Part shown: positions 2,982 through 20,188 of the stretch, in pieces | Layout: each line of letters opens with the position of its first letter | Numbering within the stretch: the first letter of the stretch is position 1 | From: Tamlana sp. 2_MG-2023 | GTDB taxonomy: Bacteria > Bacteroidota > Bacteroidia > Flavobacteriales > Flavobacteriaceae | DNA length: 49,571 nucleotides | Direction: 5' to 3' | NCBI RefSeq assembly: GCF_030548465.1 | Contig: NZ_JAUOSF010000016.1 | Coordinates: 1 to 49,571, forward strand | Made by a program: the position numbers and the translations under genes | The notes under the pieces: generated by a model | Database searches by the model: none | Told to the model about the DNA's origin: nothing | The model's input: only the letters and a program-made list of their open reading frames with translations

Positions 2982-3962
2982 TTAGACGTACATTTTATTA
3001 TATTTATTCCTATACGCAATCGGTGTTAGCCCAGTAATTTTCTTAAAAATAGTACGAAATGCTTTTGTGTCAGTATAACCGACATCATACATTACTTCAT
3101 TAATATTTTTGCGACTGGTTTCAAAAAACCGTTTGGCAGTTTCAATCTTAACTCTATTAATATATTGCAATACAGAATTGTTAGTGGCCATTTTGAATCT
3201 TCTTTCAAAACTTCGCCTGCCCAATGACACCAAATCGGCCAATTCGTCAACCGTTATTTTTTCTTGAGTATTATTTTCAATAAATTCTTGTACTCGTTTA
3301 ATTAATTCATCAGTATGGTTTTTTTGCCCCTGAAACATTGCAAAAGTGGCTTGGCTATCCCTATCAATATCTATCGCAAAATATTTTGAAGCCAATATGG
3401 CCGTTTCTCTATCCGTGTATTTTTCTGTCAAGTAAAGTAATAGGTTCCAATAGGAATTTGCACCGCCACTTGAGTAAAGTCGATTTTCTTCAGTGATAAT
3501 ATGCCCTTCTACAACTTCAACTTCCGGAAACATTTCACGAAACTCATTTTGAAAACCCCAATGTGTTGAACATTTTTTACCGTTTAGCAAACCCGTGGAA
3601 GCCAATAGAAATGCACCCACGCATAACGAGGCAACTTCTGAACCTTTTTTGTAATGGTCCTTTATCCAAGGTAAAAGGTTGCTATTTGATGTAATAGCAG
3701 TTTTCATATCGCCGAACAGGGCAGGGATTATTATTAAATCTGTTGTTTCAACATCCTTTAGAAGTTGGGAAGTGTTTACAGAAAACAAACCTTCGTTTAA
3801 TTTAACTTCCCTTTTTAAACCAACCAATTGCACATCAAACAATGGCTTTCTGCCACTAACAGCCATAAATTGATTGACTGCCGAAAACAAATATTGTGGA
3901 TCTGCTATGGCCTGCATAACAGAATTTTCAGGAACAAGAATACTGACTTTCTTCATATTCAA
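2982..3962 (-). CDS. GlxA-type AraC-family regulator (DJ-1/PfpI plus HTH)
   Basis: A 326-residue regulator. The N-terminal DJ-1/PfpI-like amidotransferase fold spans about residues 5-190, with the nucleophile-elbow region ASLCVGAFLLASTG (Cys about 115) and CSTHWGF. The C-terminal double AraC helix-turn-helix spans about 220-322, with SLGRRSFERRFKMAT and VMYDVGYTDTKAFRTIFKKITGLTPIAYRNKY. In GlxA proteins the PfpI-like part acts as a sensor domain; its ligand cannot be read here. It is divergent from the AHSA1-PhnB-DoxX-DUF4287 operon at 4091-5519, which is its most likely target. Confidence 0.9.
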   Translation of the reverse strand: MNMKKVSILVPENSVMQAIADPQYLFSAVNQFMAVSGRKPLFDVQLVGLKREVKLNEGLFSVNTSQLLKDVETTDLIIIPALFGDMKTAITSNSNLLPWIKDHYKKGSEVASLCVGAFLLASTGLLNGKKCSTHWGFQNEFREMFPEVEVVEGHIITEENRLYSSGGANSYWNLLLYLTEKYTDRETAILASKYFAIDIDRDSQATFAMFQGQKNHTDELIKRVQEFIENNTQEKITVDELADLVSLGRRSFERRFKMATNNSVLQYINRVKIETAKRFFETSRKNINEVMYDVGYTDTKAFRTIFKKITGLTPIAYRNKYNKMYV

Positions 3963-7543: not shown

Positions 7544-10500
7544 TTAATTCATCAGCACTTTAAATTGCTGCTTCTCATCATTCACTTCAACTGTTAATAA
7601 AAGTATTTGATTTTGTCCTTTAAATTCTCCTAAATCTAATGATAAGTTTTGGTTTCCATCTAGTTTCAAATTATTATAGTTAACCAAATTTCGTCCTAAA
7701 ATATCATTAACCACTACAGAAACTTCCTTATTCTTAATAGAACCACTAAATTGTAGCGTTATATTTCCATCTGTAGGATTAGGATATAATCTAACACCCT
7801 TAATTAATTGTTGATCAATAATACCTAATGTCTTTTCTCCAATATTATCATCTAATGCGAATACTATAGTTGTGGAAGCATTAAACGTAACCTCATTTCC
7901 ACTAGCATCTACTTGAGATGTATTACTTCCGCTTGGATGTTGCACAGAAAAGAAACCATATTTATAGTCTGGAGTAAAGGTTAACCCCGTAGGCTCGGCC
8001 CCAGACGGCATTGATGCAAATAGCTCTACGTTTGGATTACTTTGTGTGTGATCTGGACGCACTATCCAAATATAGTTTTTACCTCCATCTTGAAGTACCC
8101 AAAGGTTTCCTTTATCGTCAAATGTTAAATTATCATTACCATTAGCCCATGCTTCTGATTGTGTTCCTGTTTCTGAGGAAATGTCGTAATTCATTCCACC
8201 CACAAAGGTTTCAAAATCACTTACAGTCTCTTCATTATCTCTGAATCTATATACACGACTTAAACCTTTTGCAGCAAAATAAATTTTACCAGTAATTGGA
8301 TTAATTTCAACATCTTCTACACCATTAAAGGCTGTACCTCCAAGACTACTAGCAATAACATTTAAGTTGTTTCTATCCGATTGTGAGTCGTTAGGAACTT
8401 CAATCCAAGTCCCTTTAGAAGAACTCGGGTCGTTTCCTGATAATGCTATATCCATTTTCAAAACGTATACCGTACCTTCTGTAAGATCGCCAGGTGTATC
8501 CATGACATATTTATATAAACAATGAGTTCCTCCATCTTCTCCGTAATAGGCTGTTGTTCCGTCATCTGAAATGACAACATTTTCATGATTCATTCTTCCC
8601 ATTGCCCATAATTTATCCTTTTTACCATCGTTATCATAATCCAAAACAGTTGCAGTAACTGGGTCAATTTCTACAAACCATCCTACATCTTGATAACCGT
8701 CTCCATTAACATCTCCAGAATTTGTACTTTCTTCTGCTGTCACTACGGTTCCCCAAGGTGTAATACCTCCAGAACAATTACGTGTTGTTGTTACTAAATC
8801 TGTACTGTATAAATCTACAGCCTGACTTTCTTCAACTTCCCAAAGTTGTGTTGTGGTATTTAAACGAATATCTAAAATAGATACACCTCCTGGAGTGTTT
8901 TCATGATTTACTGACAAATAGCCTTCTTCACTACTACCCTCAATAGCCACATAAGCCGTAAAGTCATTTGTTCCAGGCATATTTCCTCCTCCTAAAGAAT
9001 ACGACTCTCCTTCTTTCATAACAACTTGAAAATCATACTCTGGAGACAAAATTAAATTACTTGTTTGTGACGTAGGCGTAATAGATGTCAAACAACCAAT
9101 ATGCTCACCCTCACAATCTATCGCTAAATCTTGTGTATTCTGAATATACAAATCGAATCGTGTATCTGAACTTGACACATTGGCTTGATGAATCTCAACA
9201 GCAATACGGTTGATACCTTCTACAAACATACCTTTTGCAACCGTAGAGGTAAAGTAAATATTTTCATTAATACCGTCAACAGCATTAATAGCAGGGGTTT
9301 GGTAATCTATCGTTCCTGTTGGCATATTACTACGCAGCGCTTCTACACCATTAATATAAATAATAGCACCGTCATCTCTTCGTAGACCTAATTCTACCAT
9401 ATCAGTTAATTCACTTAAAGACACTTCAATATCTTTTATGTAATATGTGGTAATGTATTTATTATTCGAATCAGAACCGTAAGACACTTCTGTATTAACA
9501 GGATCCCCATAGCCAAATGGCGCAAAACCTCTATTCCATGGAATCACATTATAGTCTAAAGCTAGCCAATCTGTTCCCATATCAGTACCTTGATCTAAAA
9601 CATACCACTGCTCATCTTTAAGGATAGGGTATTTTGTAACTTCAAGGGGAGGTAATTCATAATTTACTTCCATATCAAACTGAACATCTGAACTCGTTCC
9701 GTTATTTTGATGTAATTCTACCGCGATAACATTTTCGCCATTTTGAAGCAAATTAGCCGTTTTAATGGTTGTCCAAACACTTTCAGCATCTCCACTTACT
9801 TCTTCTACAGCGTACATATCATAAGTTACTTCACCTTCAGGCATATTTAACCTAAAAGCTTCGCTACCGTTCACATAAACAATAACACCATCATCATAAA
9901 TTACATTGAAAAGTAAATTACCAATTGCAGCGACATCTTCTACATTGAAAATATGACGGAAATAATAGGTTGGATATTTAGTAGAAGCATCGGTACCGAA
10001 ATTTAAAGTTGTACTTTCTTTTCCATCTCCATAACCGAGTATTGCATTTCCAAACAGCCAAGAACTATCGTCAAAAGCTGACTCTTTCCAGTCGGTTCCT
10101 AAATCTTGCCCTAAGTCATTGTATTTCCATAATCCACCCGATACAATCGGAAAGCTTCCTGTGGGATATTCGTTAATGTTTTTCCAAGCTAAATACAGTG
10201 GCTCTTCTTCATTAAAGTCTAAATTAGTAAAGCTAATAATATTGTTTTCCTTTAATCCCGATGCTGCTATTTCAACAGCTGTTGAAGGTTCTCCAGATAA
10301 TAAATAATACTCATTAGCGATAAGTTCAACTTGATTTAAGTTTTCAAATATTTTTGAAACATCTACCATAACTGATCCCGAATTAATAAACAAAGGATCT
10401 ATTTTCCATCGGCTATTTAAGTATAAAACATTTGTTTCTGAAGCGTCTGCAGTAGGCAACACCTCATCTCCAGGTTCCTTTGAAAATATAATATTACTAT

Positions 10501-13500
10501 TGAAATCAGCGATATCCTCTGCATAATACATTCCATTAGAGTTATCATTTTTGAGACTCCAGCTTCCTACAACTTGATTATTAAAAGGAGCTTCAATAAT
10601 ACGTACTGGACTTGTAGCTGGAACAATATCAGCATTCGTGTAAGCGACTTCCAGAACTGTGTTACCAGAATTAACGAGGTACCCACTATCATCTTGATTA
10701 AAAGTATAATTGAATGCTAAATCTCCATCTGTATCAAGAAGTGTTTGGTGCATATCTGCAATAATCTCTTCTTGAGTTTTAGCTTTAGTCCAAATTCTTA
10801 ATTCATCCATTATTGAATTTGATTGACCATTATAATTTATGGTTCTACCTAAGGCAAAATCCCAAGTACTATTAGATGCATAACCATCGAAAGCATTTGT
10901 CGCTTTTAATTCACCATTAACATACAGCTTTAATTCATGGTCTATTAGAGACACAGTAACCGCAATATGATTCCATTCTCCAATTGTTAATGCATCTCTT
11001 GACTCTGCTTTATTCCATCCAGAACCATTATTACCAAACACAGCATTAACAGAATTATTATTAGGGAATTCTAATGAAAAACCAGTAGAATTACCATCGA
11101 CTCTACCGTGGTTAGATAATAAAGGTACATTCTCTCCTGGATCTGACGTTAATTTAGCCCACAACTCTATTGTAAAATCTCCTGCTAAAATAGATTCAAT
11201 TGTATTAGAAGGTATTTGTACCTGATGACCTCCTTCAAGATTAAAAGCTCCGCCTTGAGCAAGAATTGCAGCTGTATTATCCTCCAGGTAAGCAATAAAA
11301 TAAATACCGTTACCAATCTCAACATCATTAAAAGTGACTACATTGTCTGTTGCTGTTGTTGCAGAAGCCACAACTTCATAAGCTACTTGTGGATCTCCTT
11401 TAATTAAGATGTACTCTCCAACAGTTGCAGCTGTCATTCCTACATTTTCAAAAATAGAAGATAATTCAATTGTAATATCAGTGGTGGTAATATTCATGGT
11501 ATTAACATTCCATCCCCCTGCTATATAATACATATCTTCTTCTTCTTCTTCTGCATTAGGTAAATCTAATATTGTTTTATTATTGTCTCTACCAAACACG
11601 ATATTTTCTATAAAACTACTGATGGTTCCTTCTACATACATACCACTAGAGTTCTCAGCTGAGTAACTCCAACTTCCTGATATAATATCATCAAAACCTA
11701 CTACAGATTCTGCAACAGGAGTCGAAGCAGCAATAATAGATGCGTTGGTATAATTAACATCATCTACTTGAATGCCATTATTACCTAACAGTCCATTATC
11801 TTCTTGATCAAACGCATAATAAAACTGCAGATTTTCATCAGTAATATCTAATACACTATGCATACCCGAAACAATTTCTTCTTGAGTTCGTGCTTCCGAC
11901 CAGAAGCGAAATTCATCGACTACAAAAAGGACTTGACCTCCATAATTCAAACTACGTCCAAAAGCAAAATCCCAAGTACTATTTGGCGCATAAGCTGAGA
12001 ATGCTGTACTTCCTTCTAATTGTCCGTTAATATAAAGTTGAACCTCACTTTCTGGTGTGGTACTTATAGCAACATGATTCCATTCACCAATCTGAAGAGC
12101 TGTTGTTGAAATGACTTTCGTCCAACCATCACCATTTGTTCCATAAACCACACTTAAGGTGTTATTACTTTCCAACTCTAAAGTAAATCCTGTAGAGTTC
12201 CCATCTATTCTTCCATGATTAGAAAGTATTGTTTTATCACTAGGATCATCTGGTAAATTTAGCCAAAGCTCCAATGTATGAGCGCCTTCTAAAATATTTT
12301 CAGTTGAAGTATATGGAATTTTAACATCATGATCATTTACCAAGGCTAAAGCCCCTCCTCTTCCTGGAACAAATTCGCCTTCTTCCCATGCTAAGTAGTA
12401 TACAGATTCTTCAATATTTACATTATAAAAACTAATGCTTGTACCGTCGAACGTCCCTTCATCTACCATAGAGAAGTCTGTTTCTCCTTCATTTTTATTC
12501 AGTAAATAATAATGCCCTGCAGCTGCAGAAATAGAACTGGCGGCTGCACCAACGGTAGCTTCCAAATTAAATTTGAAGGTGGCAAATGGTGTATTTAAAG
12601 GATCTATTTTCCAACCACCTTGTAAATATTGAACACCAGACATGTTTGGTGTTTCTGAAATATCTGTATCATTTATTTTACCTGCAATAATATTACTTGT
12701 AAATAAGGCTATATCGTTAGAAAAACTTAAACCATGATTAAGACTGCTATTGTTCTTACTCCATTTCCCTGAAACAAAATCTCTATATGTCATAGGAATA
12801 TTCCCTAAAGGGGAAGTTGCTGATGTTAATGCAGCAGAAGTAATATCCATTTCATAATTTATACTACCAGAACTAGTAATAGTTGTTGCCGTTTCAGATG
12901 TTGGTGCAAAGTTGTAATACAATGCTAAATCTGTTTCATCTCCTGCTAATGAGTAATGTAAAGACCTTGAAATTTCATCGGCAGATAAAACTTTACTCCA
13001 AATTCGCATATCATCGATATCACCTTGAATCGCACTTCCATAATTAGGACTGTATCCTAATCCTAACCCAAACGTATTAGGGGAATATCCGTTATATGCC
13101 ATTTCTGTAACATACTCTCCATTAAGATAATATTTAATACTCCCTCCTACTTCTGCCGAAATGGTTATATGATTCCATTCTCCAATAGTCCAAGCATCGC
13201 CTTTATTATCAATTTTATTCCATCCAGAGCCATTAGTTCCTACGACTACATTTAATTTATTTTCTGATGAAAACTCAAAAGAAAGTCCTGTAGAATTGTT
13301 GTTAACTCTACCGTGAGTAGAAAAAATAGAAGCATTACTTGCAGGATCTGCATTTAATTTTGCCCAAAATTGAACTGTAAAATTATCTGAAAATAAAGCA
13401 TTAGAAATATCAGATGGAATTGCGGTTTGCTGAGCGCCAGATAAGGTTAACATATCTCCACGATTAGATTCTACCTGAGCATTTTCTAAAATATCGTTAT

Positions 13501-15454
13501 CAGAAATTAACCTCGCATATAACTCTAAATTATCGATACTTCCTAAAAACTGTTTACCTTCAATATTATTTCCTATTCTAAAATCTGAGGTAGACGCTGT
13601 AGGAGATGACACATTATTCCATGTTTGAATTAAAAATCCATTATAGTATAACGTTAATTTTTTTCTTACGTTGTCATATTTCCAAGTGATATATGACCAG
13701 TCATTTTCTAAAACGCTATAGTTGCTCTCATGAGTTACACCTGTAGCGTGATCTTTATAATTTAAGTTCCCATTCTTTGAAATCCCAAAAGAAACTCCTG
13801 TAGTCGCAGTAGCATCAGAAACTATTGTTGATCCATTAGAAGGTAAACTACTTGGGTTAATCCAAAAACTTAAGCTATATGCTTTATCATAAAAGTTTAA
13901 TGCTGTAGAAACAGGAATAGTAAGAGTTGTATTTTTAGAAAATACTAAAGCACTATTAACATTATCATCTTTATCTGCACCCAAGCTATAGTTAGAGGCT
14001 TCTAATATATGGCTATAGTCAGAATTATCCACAACGGCATTTGTGAAATCTAAAGATAAATTATGCGCATCAGAATTTTGACTCGTTAACATATCTTGGT
14101 GAACCACTTCTTCAAAAAATGTGGTCCCATCAAAACCTACATATTCGAACTTTATTCTTCTATCTCCTTCTTCTCCATACACATTTGTTCGTACATAACC
14201 ATGCTTCACACCCGTAAGAATATCATTGGAAGCGCTATAATTTACATTATAATTCCCTACTTCACCATTTCCACCAATATCAGAATTAATATTTCCAGAC
14301 ATAATATCGTACATCGGATATTTTGTATCGCTTTCACGTACCATAAAACGTTGGTCGTGTATATCGGCACAATAAGATACAACGCCGTTTATATTATTGT
14401 TTTGGATAAATTGTAAAAATTCATCAGCTTGATTACTGACACTAAAGTTTCTACCACCAACTTCTCTAAAGGTTGGAGTACCATTAATAATAACCTTAAA
14501 CGTTGCTTTAGAATTAAGTAAACCTTGTTTTAACCACTCTAATTGTTCATCACCAAAATGGTCTGCTGTACCATCTCTGTAGCTTCTGTTATCTGTTAAG
14601 AAAAACTCTACATCTTTATATACATAGGAAGAATGCATACCCTCTCCTTCTACCGTGTCCAAATATTCAGGATTTGGCCACCAATCCTTAAATATATCAC
14701 GCATTTCTGGTAACGTAGCCATTGTTTTATCGAACTCATTTGGTCCAGTGTCATGGTTATCTGTTATTGCTAATTGTGGCATAGCCATGGTTAACTGATC
14801 ATGAAACTGTCTATAAAACATGTATCGATCAAACGCCATATCTTTATTTGCCCAATCATCTATAGCATCAGGACATTCTCCATTTGCATGTTGTAATCCT
14901 AATAGGTAAGTGGCATCCCCTAACCAAACCATTAAATCTGCATCTTCTGCAGCCATATGATTAAATAGTTCTGGATTACCATTAATATGCGTTAACGATT
15001 CTGGTGTATCAACACAACGTGACGTATCATATATTCTTCCGCATCCACCTGCCAAAAACTCAAAATTGTCAATAACATTTTGGTCATTTGTAATAGAGGA
15101 TGTTCTTGACGATACATTTCCGTTAATTTGTAAACTAGCAGTATATGTTTCACCTTCCGTTAAATTATTAAATTCATAAGACCTAAGGTAATATCCTAAC
15201 CTGTCATCTGAATTAAAAACTGAGCCACTTAGCTCTGTCGCTTGAGCTTGAGAACCCGTCATAGTTAAAGACAGGGCATCTCCAGATCCTGTGTTACCCT
15301 TAGTAAGCACCCATACTCTAACCTTATTTTCATAAACAGGACTAAACATAGGACCAAATACTAAAGAATCTCCAGGTATGACTGTTTGCGCTTTAAGCTC
15401 AAAACTCATACAGAGAGAAAAAAACAGTAAAATAAATAGTAAACTTTTTTTCAT
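7544..15454 (-). CDS. Giant secreted PhoD-LamG-PhoX phosphatase with T9SS sorting domain
   Basis: A 2636-residue multidomain exoprotein. In order: signal peptide (1-22); PhoD-like metallophosphatase (about 25-450) with WLGDATYL, ITDNHDTGPNE and YCADIHDQR as metal-binding motifs; LamG/concanavalin-like domains at about 468-658, 670-850, 1035-1205 and 1400-1578, the last three each followed by a GSW or GKW-containing module; two jelly-roll-like domains (about 1775-1935 and 1945-2105, each with LGTDW or MGTDW and DDG-IYVNG); a PhoX/DUF839 beta-propeller (about 2110-2545) with VNHENTPGG and CSGGITPWGT; and a type IX C-terminal sorting domain (about 2550-2636, YPNPTDGN). It is probably secreted through T9SS to the cell surface and hydrolyses phosphoesters while binding glycans. 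Activity of either catalytic part is inferred from motifs. Confidence 0.85.
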   Translation of the reverse strand: MKKSLLFILLFFSLCMSFELKAQTVIPGDSLVFGPMFSPVYENKVRVWVLTKGNTGSGDALSLTMTGSQAQATELSGSVFNSDDRLGYYLRSYEFNNLTEGETYTASLQINGNVSSRTSSITNDQNVIDNFEFLAGGCGRIYDTSRCVDTPESLTHINGNPELFNHMAAEDADLMVWLGDATYLLGLQHANGECPDAIDDWANKDMAFDRYMFYRQFHDQLTMAMPQLAITDNHDTGPNEFDKTMATLPEMRDIFKDWWPNPEYLDTVEGEGMHSSYVYKDVEFFLTDNRSYRDGTADHFGDEQLEWLKQGLLNSKATFKVIINGTPTFREVGGRNFSVSNQADEFLQFIQNNNINGVVSYCADIHDQRFMVRESDTKYPMYDIMSGNINSDIGGNGEVGNYNVNYSASNDILTGVKHGYVRTNVYGEEGDRRIKFEYVGFDGTTFFEEVVHQDMLTSQNSDAHNLSLDFTNAVVDNSDYSHILEASNYSLGADKDDNVNSALVFSKNTTLTIPVSTALNFYDKAYSLSFWINPSSLPSNGSTIVSDATATTGVSFGISKNGNLNYKDHATGVTHESNYSVLENDWSYITWKYDNVRKKLTLYYNGFLIQTWNNVSSPTASTSDFRIGNNIEGKQFLGSIDNLELYARLISDNDILENAQVESNRGDMLTLSGAQQTAIPSDISNALFSDNFTVQFWAKLNADPASNASIFSTHGRVNNNSTGLSFEFSSENKLNVVVGTNGSGWNKIDNKGDAWTIGEWNHITISAEVGGSIKYYLNGEYVTEMAYNGYSPNTFGLGLGYSPNYGSAIQGDIDDMRIWSKVLSADEISRSLHYSLAGDETDLALYYNFAPTSETATTITSSGSINYEMDITSAALTSATSPLGNIPMTYRDFVSGKWSKNNSSLNHGLSFSNDIALFTSNIIAGKINDTDISETPNMSGVQYLQGGWKIDPLNTPFATFKFNLEATVGAAASSISAAAGHYYLLNKNEGETDFSMVDEGTFDGTSISFYNVNIEESVYYLAWEEGEFVPGRGGALALVNDHDVKIPYTSTENILEGAHTLELWLNLPDDPSDKTILSNHGRIDGNSTGFTLELESNNTLSVVYGTNGDGWTKVISTTALQIGEWNHVAISTTPESEVQLYINGQLEGSTAFSAYAPNSTWDFAFGRSLNYGGQVLFVVDEFRFWSEARTQEEIVSGMHSVLDITDENLQFYYAFDQEDNGLLGNNGIQVDDVNYTNASIIAASTPVAESVVGFDDIISGSWSYSAENSSGMYVEGTISSFIENIVFGRDNNKTILDLPNAEEEEEDMYYIAGGWNVNTMNITTTDITIELSSIFENVGMTAATVGEYILIKGDPQVAYEVVASATTATDNVVTFNDVEIGNGIYFIAYLEDNTAAILAQGGAFNLEGGHQVQIPSNTIESILAGDFTIELWAKLTSDPGENVPLLSNHGRVDGNSTGFSLEFPNNNSVNAVFGNNGSGWNKAESRDALTIGEWNHIAVTVSLIDHELKLYVNGELKATNAFDGYASNSTWDFALGRTINYNGQSNSIMDELRIWTKAKTQEEIIADMHQTLLDTDGDLAFNYTFNQDDSGYLVNSGNTVLEVAYTNADIVPATSPVRIIEAPFNNQVVGSWSLKNDNSNGMYYAEDIADFNSNIIFSKEPGDEVLPTADASETNVLYLNSRWKIDPLFINSGSVMVDVSKIFENLNQVELIANEYYLLSGEPSTAVEIAASGLKENNIISFTNLDFNEEEPLYLAWKNINEYPTGSFPIVSGGLWKYNDLGQDLGTDWKESAFDDSSWLFGNAILGYGDGKESTTLNFGTDASTKYPTYYFRHIFNVEDVAAIGNLLFNVIYDDGVIVYVNGSEAFRLNMPEGEVTYDMYAVEEVSGDAESVWTTIKTANLLQNGENVIAVELHQNNGTSSDVQFDMEVNYELPPLEVTKYPILKDEQWYVLDQGTDMGTDWLALDYNVIPWNRGFAPFGYGDPVNTEVSYGSDSNNKYITTYYIKDIEVSLSELTDMVELGLRRDDGAIIYINGVEALRSNMPTGTIDYQTPAINAVDGINENIYFTSTVAKGMFVEGINRIAVEIHQANVSSSDTRFDLYIQNTQDLAIDCEGEHIGCLTSITPTSQTSNLILSPEYDFQVVMKEGESYSLGGGNMPGTNDFTAYVAIEGSSEEGYLSVNHENTPGGVSILDIRLNTTTQLWEVEESQAVDLYSTDLVTTTRNCSGGITPWGTVVTAEESTNSGDVNGDGYQDVGWFVEIDPVTATVLDYDNDGKKDKLWAMGRMNHENVVISDDGTTAYYGEDGGTHCLYKYVMDTPGDLTEGTVYVLKMDIALSGNDPSSSKGTWIEVPNDSQSDRNNLNVIASSLGGTAFNGVEDVEINPITGKIYFAAKGLSRVYRFRDNEETVSDFETFVGGMNYDISSETGTQSEAWANGNDNLTFDDKGNLWVLQDGGKNYIWIVRPDHTQSNPNVELFASMPSGAEPTGLTFTPDYKYGFFSVQHPSGSNTSQVDASGNEVTFNASTTIVFALDDNIGEKTLGIIDQQLIKGVRLYPNPTDGNITLQFSGSIKNKEVSVVVNDILGRNLVNYNNLKLDGNQNLSLDLGEFKGQNQILLLTVEVNDEKQQFKVLMN

Positions 15455-19615: not shown

Positions 19616-20188
19616 TCATTTAATTTTATAAACCAACAAAGGTATATGCGCAATAATAATGGGCTATCAACCTTAGGTTAAGAAATCTTTATAAAAAAAT
19701 GAGTTTTACTATTTTCCTAGATTTAAAATTCTAATATTATTTTTATACTTCGTAATTTATTATTTTAAATCTTTAGTAGCGTAGGTTGCGACACATGGTG
19801 GAATGTTACTAATTACCCAAAAAAACAGCAACTGGAACCATGGATATTTTTCCAACAATGATAGATATACTTCCAATCAATATAATTTTTGCACTAGAGA
19901 GTCTTCAATTTTATTATTACTCTCATAAATATTGAGTTGATCTTTGATTTTACAAAGAAATTTTGGACTTTTATTAATTGGTCTGATACTCTTAATTTCA
20001 ACATGACTTGAAAAGGGCATCGTATGAAGTTGAAATAATAAATAAAGATTAGGGGACAGACATTTTGTATCGCCCCAAATGGAATTGACATGAACAATGT
20101 AACTTTCACAGAATCCGAAGATTTAACAGCTCGTCGTTTAGGCATTTATGTTCCTCTTTTTGCTTAGCTTTATACAAAATAAAGAACA
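19616..20188. other. Gene-poor stretch with possible gene relics
   Basis: About 570 bases between divergent units. Two short open stretches on the plus strand look like decayed genes: 19840-19935 (begins MDIFPTMIDILPI, faintly like a sulfatase segment, weak) and 20042-20167. Upstream of the peroxidase start I see no clear promoter or operator. Confidence 0.35.
20042..20167 (+). pseudogene. Possible C-terminal gene relic
   Basis: 41 open codons ending in a stop just before the Crp-like gene, reading QTFCIAPNGIDMNNVTF then TESEDLTARRLGIYVPLFA. The composition is protein-like, yet there is an immediate upstream stop and no good start. I cannot name the family. It may be the tail of a gene lost by recombination at this junction. 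Confidence 0.3.

Follow-up and report, generated by a model that had tools for sequence, protein, structure and literature searches.

PhoD and PhoX are described as Fe3+/Ca2+ enzymes exported by the Tat pathway and are believed to receive their iron while still in the cytoplasm, with PhoD cleaving both diesters and monoesters and PhoX monoesters only (PMC4223295). In Flavobacterium johnsoniae, a PhoX-like gene (Fjoh_2478) adjoins a MauG-like gene (Fjoh_2477) (PMC8115612, PMC8812569); the PhoX-like protein is reported to keep nine of ten key residues, both genes to be strongly induced by low phosphate (PMC8115612), and PhoX, from a MauG-phoX operon, to be active at home and inactive in P. putida, a cofactor made by MauG being suggested (PMC8812569). 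BthA of Burkholderia thailandensis, a bis-Fe(IV) di-heme enzyme, is reported to have a putative purple acid phosphatase encoded nearby in every case, and its authors named this phosphatase as a possible oxidation target (PMC6405878). The methanotroph pairs CorA/CorB and MopE/SACCP likewise combine a surface metal-binding protein, whose metal site includes a kynurenine formed by oxidation of Trp, with a nearby di-heme gene of CCP/MauG type, although these proteins bind copper and are described without a phosphatase (PMC3912023).

Here we analyse a locus in a contig of Tamlana sp. 2_MG-2023 (NZ_JAUOSF010000016.1; the window is the whole stretch of 49,571 nucleotides) in which PhoD and PhoX are joined in one protein. 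Like the F. johnsoniae pair, it sets a PhoX-family gene close to MauG-like genes; unlike that pair, which is described without PhoD, with one MauG and as a lipoprotein, it has two phosphatase-family domains and two MauG-type neighbours, a kinship that we draw from the published descriptions. Both domains, the MauG-PhoX operon and the BthA-phosphatase pair are already known. In the open-licence PMC literature we found no publication on a PhoD-PhoX fusion, on a MauG type tied to PhoD and accompanying changed PhoD ligands, or on a MauG link that spans PhoX, PhoD and purple acid phosphatase.

Results

Domain structure of the fusion

The first-pass annotation had described a single unbroken frame of 2636 codons at 7544-15454, which proved exact; the strand, which it left unstated, is minus (Table 1). 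In order, the frame encodes PhoD, four LamG domains, a pair of modules without a name, PhoX and finally a T9SS tail, and it contains all of the motifs that had been read in it (LGDATYL, NHDTGPNE, CADIHD, NHENTPGG and CSGGITPWGT). On the whole protein, Pfam places PhoD (PF09423) at residues 159-399 (E 3.8e-9; 36.6 bits against a gathering score of 27) and PhoX (PF05787) at residues 2218-2507 (E 1.7e-37; 130.2 bits against 24), and Laminin_G_3 matches in four stretches (E 6.3e-91), as the annotation's count of four LamG domains had anticipated. The type IX sorting domain claimed for the end of the chain is matched by Por_Secre_tail (PF18962; 28.0 bits against a cut-off of 27), with the NCBIfam model TIGR04183 sub-threshold (17.9 bits against 23); as the T9SS gene GldK is present in the host genome (597.7 bits against a cut-off of 350), we classify the fusion, on these profile matches, as a predicted T9SS type A cargo. 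Judged by eye, the N-terminus lacks a twin-arginine motif and resembles a Sec signal. The LamG domains are putative modules for the binding of glycans or phosphorylated polymers that the first-pass annotation had inferred, and they may hold the fusion near phosphorylated polymers.

Table 1. Features of the fusion locus, with positions in the window unless residues are given
Feature	Position	Strand	Basis or remark
PhoD-LamGx4-PhoX fusion gene, 2636 aa	7544..15454	-	frame and Pfam
Signal peptide and PhoD block, residues 1-460	14075..15454	-	Pfam PhoD 159-399 = 14258-14980
LamG 1, residues about 509-655	13490..13930	-	segment-wise Pfam scan
LamG 2, residues about 684-829	12968..13405	-	segment-wise Pfam scan
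LamG 3, residues about 1052-1194	11873..12301	-	segment-wise Pfam scan
LamG 4, residues 1408-1564	10763..11233	-	whole-protein Pfam and segment scan
Two unnamed modules N-terminal of PhoX, residues 1735-2115	9110..10252	-	conservation, without Pfam name
PhoX domain, residues 2218-2507	7934..8803	-	Pfam
T9SS type A sorting domain, residue 2556 to C-terminus	7547..7789	-	Pfam
PhoD ligand columns	C138, D180, Y183, D232, N233, H234, N239, E240, D364, H366		alignment to B. subtilis PhoD
MauGa, long MauG/BthA-type di-heme gene, 666 aa	15752..17752	-	PF03150; clade of PhoD loci
MauGb, long MauG/BthA-type di-heme gene, 619 aa	17756..19615	-	PF03150; type of PhoX loci
Leucine-rich-repeat (LRR) protein, 312 aa	6564..7502	-	downstream of fusion
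PHO-box-like direct repeat, period 11, upstream of MauGb	19677..19692	-	TTAAC halves, the one exact and the other 2 mismatches off

Two domains that the first-pass annotation called jelly-roll-like do correspond to conserved modules, at about residues 1735-2115, which show 36-67% identity across relatives and are common to many unfused PhoX proteins; their jelly-roll fold is putative, segment scans having matched no Pfam model to these modules. We considered whether they form a docking site for MauG, an idea prompted by locus L077, which lacks both the modules and MauG, and ruled it out on loci L112 and L113, which have MauG and LRR genes without them.

Occurrence and evolution of the fusion

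A scan for the PhoD block in one genome per species, a set that may not cover the window's own genome, returned 16 loci. PhoD and PhoX share one frame at 13 of these (two Winogradskyella, Pustulibacterium, two Flavobacterium, Mesonia oceanica, Niastella, two Chitinophaga, Cesiribacter, Parachryseolinea, Dawidia and a Crocinitomicaceae MAG), and we therefore reject an assembly or frameshift artefact as the origin of the fusion. At two loci, in Mesonia phycicola and Salegentibacter, PhoD and PhoX are adjacent genes, each with its own sorting domain, and at one, in a Cytophagaceae MAG (L098), PhoD stands without PhoX; a further fused copy, in genome G475, lies outside this set. The two Winogradskyella proteins have the same domain order as the fusion in frames of 2641 and 2644 aa. 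Close relatives of the PhoD block are rare: an even sample of 299 genomes from the family yielded 2 that have one, and an even sample of 395 from the phylum yielded 1 (E 1e-40 or better), both counts including the window's own genome. Between Winogradskyella species, dN/dS is 0.033 for PhoD, 0.045-0.052 for PhoX, 0.11 for LamG and 0.22-0.24 for the tail; the strongest constraint falls on the two catalytic blocks.

In the PhoD tree, much of whose branching order is unsettled and where long branches lead to L098 and to the outgroup, the split pair (L091, L099) sits among fused Flavobacteriaceae, so that a later split is simpler than a split origin of the fusion, which we set aside. Mesonia oceanica (L090:1957-19088) carries, consecutively, MauGb, an unfused PhoX, MauGa, the fusion and LRR, an arrangement that would fit the insertion of a MauGa-PhoD unit into a MauGb-PhoX-LRR operon. 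The window's genome also holds a separate MauG-PhoX-LRR locus (L076, G000:C41) and a canonical PhoD with a twin-arginine N-terminus (L001, G000:C33).

Active sites of the two halves

Against the PDB, the PhoD block finds Bacillus subtilis PhoD (2YEQ) as a weak match (E 7.3e-4; best stretch, i-E 0.027). In an alignment of 16 of the proteins, from which that of L086 and the G475 copy were left out, C138, D180, Y183, D232, H234, N239, D364 and H366 are invariant, and eight of the ten active-site residues listed in PMC5768637, as read through the weak 2YEQ match, are identical in 16/16, the other two changing from Asp to Asn and from Asn/Asp to Glu. The changed columns, D266 of B. subtilis to N233 and N272 to E240, are likewise altered in 16/16 and turn the motif DDH..N into DNH..E. 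In the B. subtilis enzyme, D266A is reported to lower activity strongly and N272A to abolish it (PMC4223295); because these are the columns that have changed, the PhoD half may bind other metals or catalyse other chemistry. DNH..NE is present in all 16 MauGa-linked PhoDs, against DDH in 27/27 and DNH in 0/27 of the other aligned PhoDs, which are those from the family sample (299 genomes) that cover the motif region. Two extra cysteines, C147 and C194, are distributed in the same way (16/16 against 0/27). The PhoD half belongs with B. subtilis PhoD by profile, keeps eight of ten active-site columns, and departs from it in the two substitutions, in the two extra invariant cysteines, in lacking a twin-arginine motif, in being joined to LamG and PhoX, in its T9SS tail and in its MauG neighbour.

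The PhoX domain finds Pseudomonas fluorescens PhoX (3ZWU) at E 3.3e-27, and keeps nine of the ten columns that we checked (C179, E193, E194, H272, E273, D292, E387, D479 and E532), which we take to be metal or phosphate ligands, the ten not being the published paper's own list. C2227 of the fusion aligns with C179, and G2378 with R385. The R385 column is Gly in 31/31 core MauG-linked PhoX rows and in L077; four rows belonging to a third PhoX type have Arg there, as do three classical PhoX proteins. The fusion further differs from 3ZWU in an extra cysteine pair, C2114/C2121, found in 31/31 core rows, and in being a module within a larger T9SS protein. The third type lacks this pair, yet has MauG; about 27% identical, it carries Phe at the H272 column and varied residues at the D479 column, with a long MauG adjoining (L116:5061-6995, L117:4960-6801, L119:5305-7128 and L120:5885-7723). 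A single Trp near the PhoX site was also considered as a MauG target and found no support: W198, W351 and W378 are present in 31/31 core rows, but also in the MauG-free L077, and are missing from the third, MauG-linked type.

Profile matches, PDB alignments and conservation therefore uphold the central claim of the earlier annotation, that one secreted protein carries two distinct phosphatase-family domains. It had also named a propeller without PhoX metal residues, or a loss of key PhoD ligands, as findings that would speak against it, and neither fully occurred: the C-terminal part is of the PhoX family and keeps most ligands, while two PhoD metal-ligand columns and one PhoX active-site column have changed.

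Two di-heme genes beside the fusion

Directly upstream of the fusion lie two MauG/BthA-type di-heme genes that were absent from the first-pass annotation, and we judge that the operon context (these two genes, the LRR gene and the PHO-box-like repeat) matters more than the fusion itself. MauGa and MauGb both match PF03150 well over its cut-off, carry two CxxCH motifs and have Tyr at the six-coordinate heme column; both score under the cut-offs of the models for MauG proper (TIGR03791; 155.7 and 161.9 bits against 443.85) and for MbnH (TIGR04039; 180.8 and 172.7 bits against 362.85). The nearest solved chain to the MauG profile is BthA (6E1C), which shares the Tyr-His heme and the nearby phosphatase gene, and differs in its length of 388 residues against 619 and 666, in its phylum and in the fold of its partner phosphatase, which is not that of PhoX. 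The heme-ligand column is Tyr in 12/12 aligned proteins and in BthA and Met in the classical peroxidases 3o5c, 1nml and 2c1u, as described for the Tyr-His ligation of MauG and BthA and the Met-His ligation of classical enzymes (PMC6405878).

The di-heme proteins divide by partner. In a tree of 41, the MauGa clade (support 100/99) holds 18 rows, one from each of 18 PhoD loci (the window, the 16 of the species scan and G475), and each of the remaining 23 is from a PhoX-bearing locus. In 17 of the 18, the gene immediately upstream of PhoD, in the same orientation, is MauGa; in Flavobacterium J27 it lies on the opposite side and on the opposite strand. At the PhoD-only locus, L098, the MauGa type alone is in view. 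Among 25 unfused core PhoX loci, MauG lies near PhoX at 22; of the other three, L073 is cut by a contig end and L077 and L083 have none nearby. At L111, one gene lies between MauG and PhoX. An LRR homologue is near PhoX at 24 of these 25 loci, and one is present at 14 of the 16 PhoD loci of the one-genome-per-species scan.

To place this pairing in the phylum, we used MauGb as query (E 1e-80 or better) in 345 evenly drawn Bacteroidota genomes, not selected for PhoX, and obtained strong homologues at 62 places in 56 genomes. At 57 of the 62, a PhoX-family gene, a fusion or a purple acid phosphatase lies at most one gene away; without the window's own genome, 54 of 59 lie beside an iron-phosphatase gene. 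Eight of the places are at loci examined previously, and all eight adjoin PhoX or the fusion. Of the 54 places newly examined, 48 are accompanied by a phosphatase-family gene in the same orientation, at a distance of no more than 600 bases in 47 cases; these are 46 PhoX-family and two purple acid phosphatase loci, the 46 comprising 35 recognised by the PhoX HMM, ten recognised as relatives of those at 34-94% identity, several of which Pfam by itself matches weakly or not at all, and L129, where an all-frame scan revealed a PhoX-family gene adjoining MauG (the scan added nothing in 14 control regions). In L173 (L111), PhoX lies one gene further from MauG. Five homologues have no phosphatase neighbour in view (L121, L158, L161, L134 and L153), the flank of L121 reading N and L158 and L161 lying at contig ends; as the phosphatase HMMs were built from the same families, distant relatives could be missed but not invented. 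By comparison, 17 short MauG/CCP homologues (340-426 aa), in 14 regions each about 13 kb long from five genomes chosen because most carry PhoX, have no match to the four profiles nearby (0 of 17).

Two purple acid phosphatase loci, with Metallophos and Pur_ac_phosph_N domains beside a long MauG (L165:2809-7811, two in tandem, and L159:1845-7183), echo the published BthA pair of Burkholderia. Elsewhere (L135-L172, for example L138:4365-5918), PhoX-related lipoproteins of about 500 aa with weak or no Pfam match stand beside long MauGs, and annotation may overlook them as phosphatases.

The pairing has counter-examples. Genome G032 encodes a PhoX with a Sec-type signal (L077) and no long MauG, which counts against MauG dependence and indicates that some PhoX relatives manage without MauG; at L083:6118-9725, PhoX and LRR genes occur with no MauG match nearby. 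A strict rule, under which MauG would accompany Sec and be missing with Tat, was therefore borne out only in part, given the Sec-type signal of L077. MauG-free classical PhoX proteins carry RR motifs in L115 and L118 and RK in L114, and other PhoDs with Sec-type signals exist.

Possible phosphate control

The PHO box of E. coli has a period of 11. TTAAC-like halves at this period, with at most two mismatches, recur in 24 of the 25 regions upstream of the first gene, where 8.2 would be expected and 100 shuffles reached 13 at most; the half-site was picked by eye, the upstreams are mutually related and some of the best matches are probably not the true site. Periods of 8-10, 13 and 14 give 4-6 upstreams and a period of 12 gives 13. 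The only upstream that fails at period 11 is that of L083, the locus without a MauG match. Elsewhere in the window (2982-3962, minus strand) lies the gene of a regulator that combines a DJ-1/PfpI domain and a helix-turn-helix of AraC type. The PstS model TIGR02136 found no match in 6/6 genomes of the window's genus, which therefore probably takes up phosphate by another system.

Discussion

We propose that the fusion is a phosphate-starvation surface enzyme that takes diesters to phosphate at two iron sites, with a separate di-heme enzyme to mature each, a reading whose activity and maturation steps we infer from sequence and to which we give even chances. The MauGb-MauGa-fusion-LRR operon would be under phosphate-starvation control, and its main product would be exported by Sec and then T9SS and be retained on the cell surface. 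As PhoD cuts diesters and PhoX monoesters, a chain with both can take a diester to phosphate: the PhoD half would open phosphodiesters, the PhoX half would release phosphate from the resulting monoesters, and a single chain would run the whole path. Both sites would need Fe(III), and because the fusion has no Tat motif it probably gains iron outside the cytoplasm. MauGa would mature the PhoD half and MauGb the PhoX half in the periplasm, by an oxidative step that may oxidise and seat the iron or modify a nearby residue.

The di-heme proteins might instead be ordinary peroxide scavengers that accompany secreted phosphatases able to mature without them. Their superfamily includes true cytochrome c peroxidases, a PhoX without a long MauG exists (L077), and BthA itself is reported to turn over H2O2 (PMC6405878). 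We nevertheless consider scavenging unlikely, since the heme-ligand column holds Tyr for Met in 12/12 aligned proteins, the MauG clades are partner-specific, and linkage to phosphatases is seen for 57 of 62 long homologues against 0 of 17 short ones. A different objection concerns the substrate end of our proposal, namely that the PhoX half alone is a phosphatase and that the PhoD half has drifted to binding or to another hydrolysis, as the separation of DNH..NE (16/16 MauGa-linked) from DDH (27/27 other PhoDs) could imply. Asn and Glu can each bind Ca2+, however, eight of ten active-site columns are invariant, and PhoD is under tighter constraint than any other block (dN/dS 0.033), which together make such drift improbable in our view.

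The LamG domains could also be taken to mark a glycan-degradation enzyme, in which PhoD and PhoX would strip phosphate from phosphorylated polysaccharides for glycosidases and the gain would be carbon, not phosphate. The PhoD-MauGa pair of L098 does lie directly after SusD, GH38 and GH3 genes, with GH43 beyond on the other strand, and the GH38 alpha-mannosidase within L098:451-13306 hints at phosphorylated mannans or similar as a substrate there. This setting, however, was met at one locus among the few scanned, the other scanned flanks being without such a set, and the PHO-box-like repeat points to phosphate control; a carbon-gaining role for the fusion therefore seems very unlikely.

Beyond a phosphate-starvation enzyme with two matured iron sites, the comparison suggests a more general proposal. 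What PhoX, PhoD and purple acid phosphatase share is not a fold but Fe(III) held by Tyr and/or Cys, and we therefore suggest that it is the iron site or its surroundings that would be matured oxidatively. On this basis we tentatively hypothesize, at somewhat short of even confidence, that long MauG-type di-heme proteins form a general class of maturases, each dedicated to an exported phosphatase that uses Fe(III), whether its fold is that of PhoX, PhoD or purple acid phosphatase, and that they allow export by Sec and T9SS with the iron site completed outside the cytoplasm, with the fusion uniting two clients and its operon the two cognate maturases.

Such a rule would join two puzzles, the Flavobacterium PhoX that stands beside MauG and fails in a foreign host (PMC8812569) and the target of BthA, as these are described by their authors (PMC6405878). 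Reaching across three Fe(III) phosphatase families, it would offer a testable function, iron-phosphatase maturation, for a large unassigned part of the CCP_MauG superfamily, and the fusion with its two cognate partners is a good object for such tests, since either half can be tried with either MauG. If the rule is true, phosphatase activity in Bacteroidota may be misjudged by heterologous tests, and by counts of PhoX and PhoD genes, that omit the partner.
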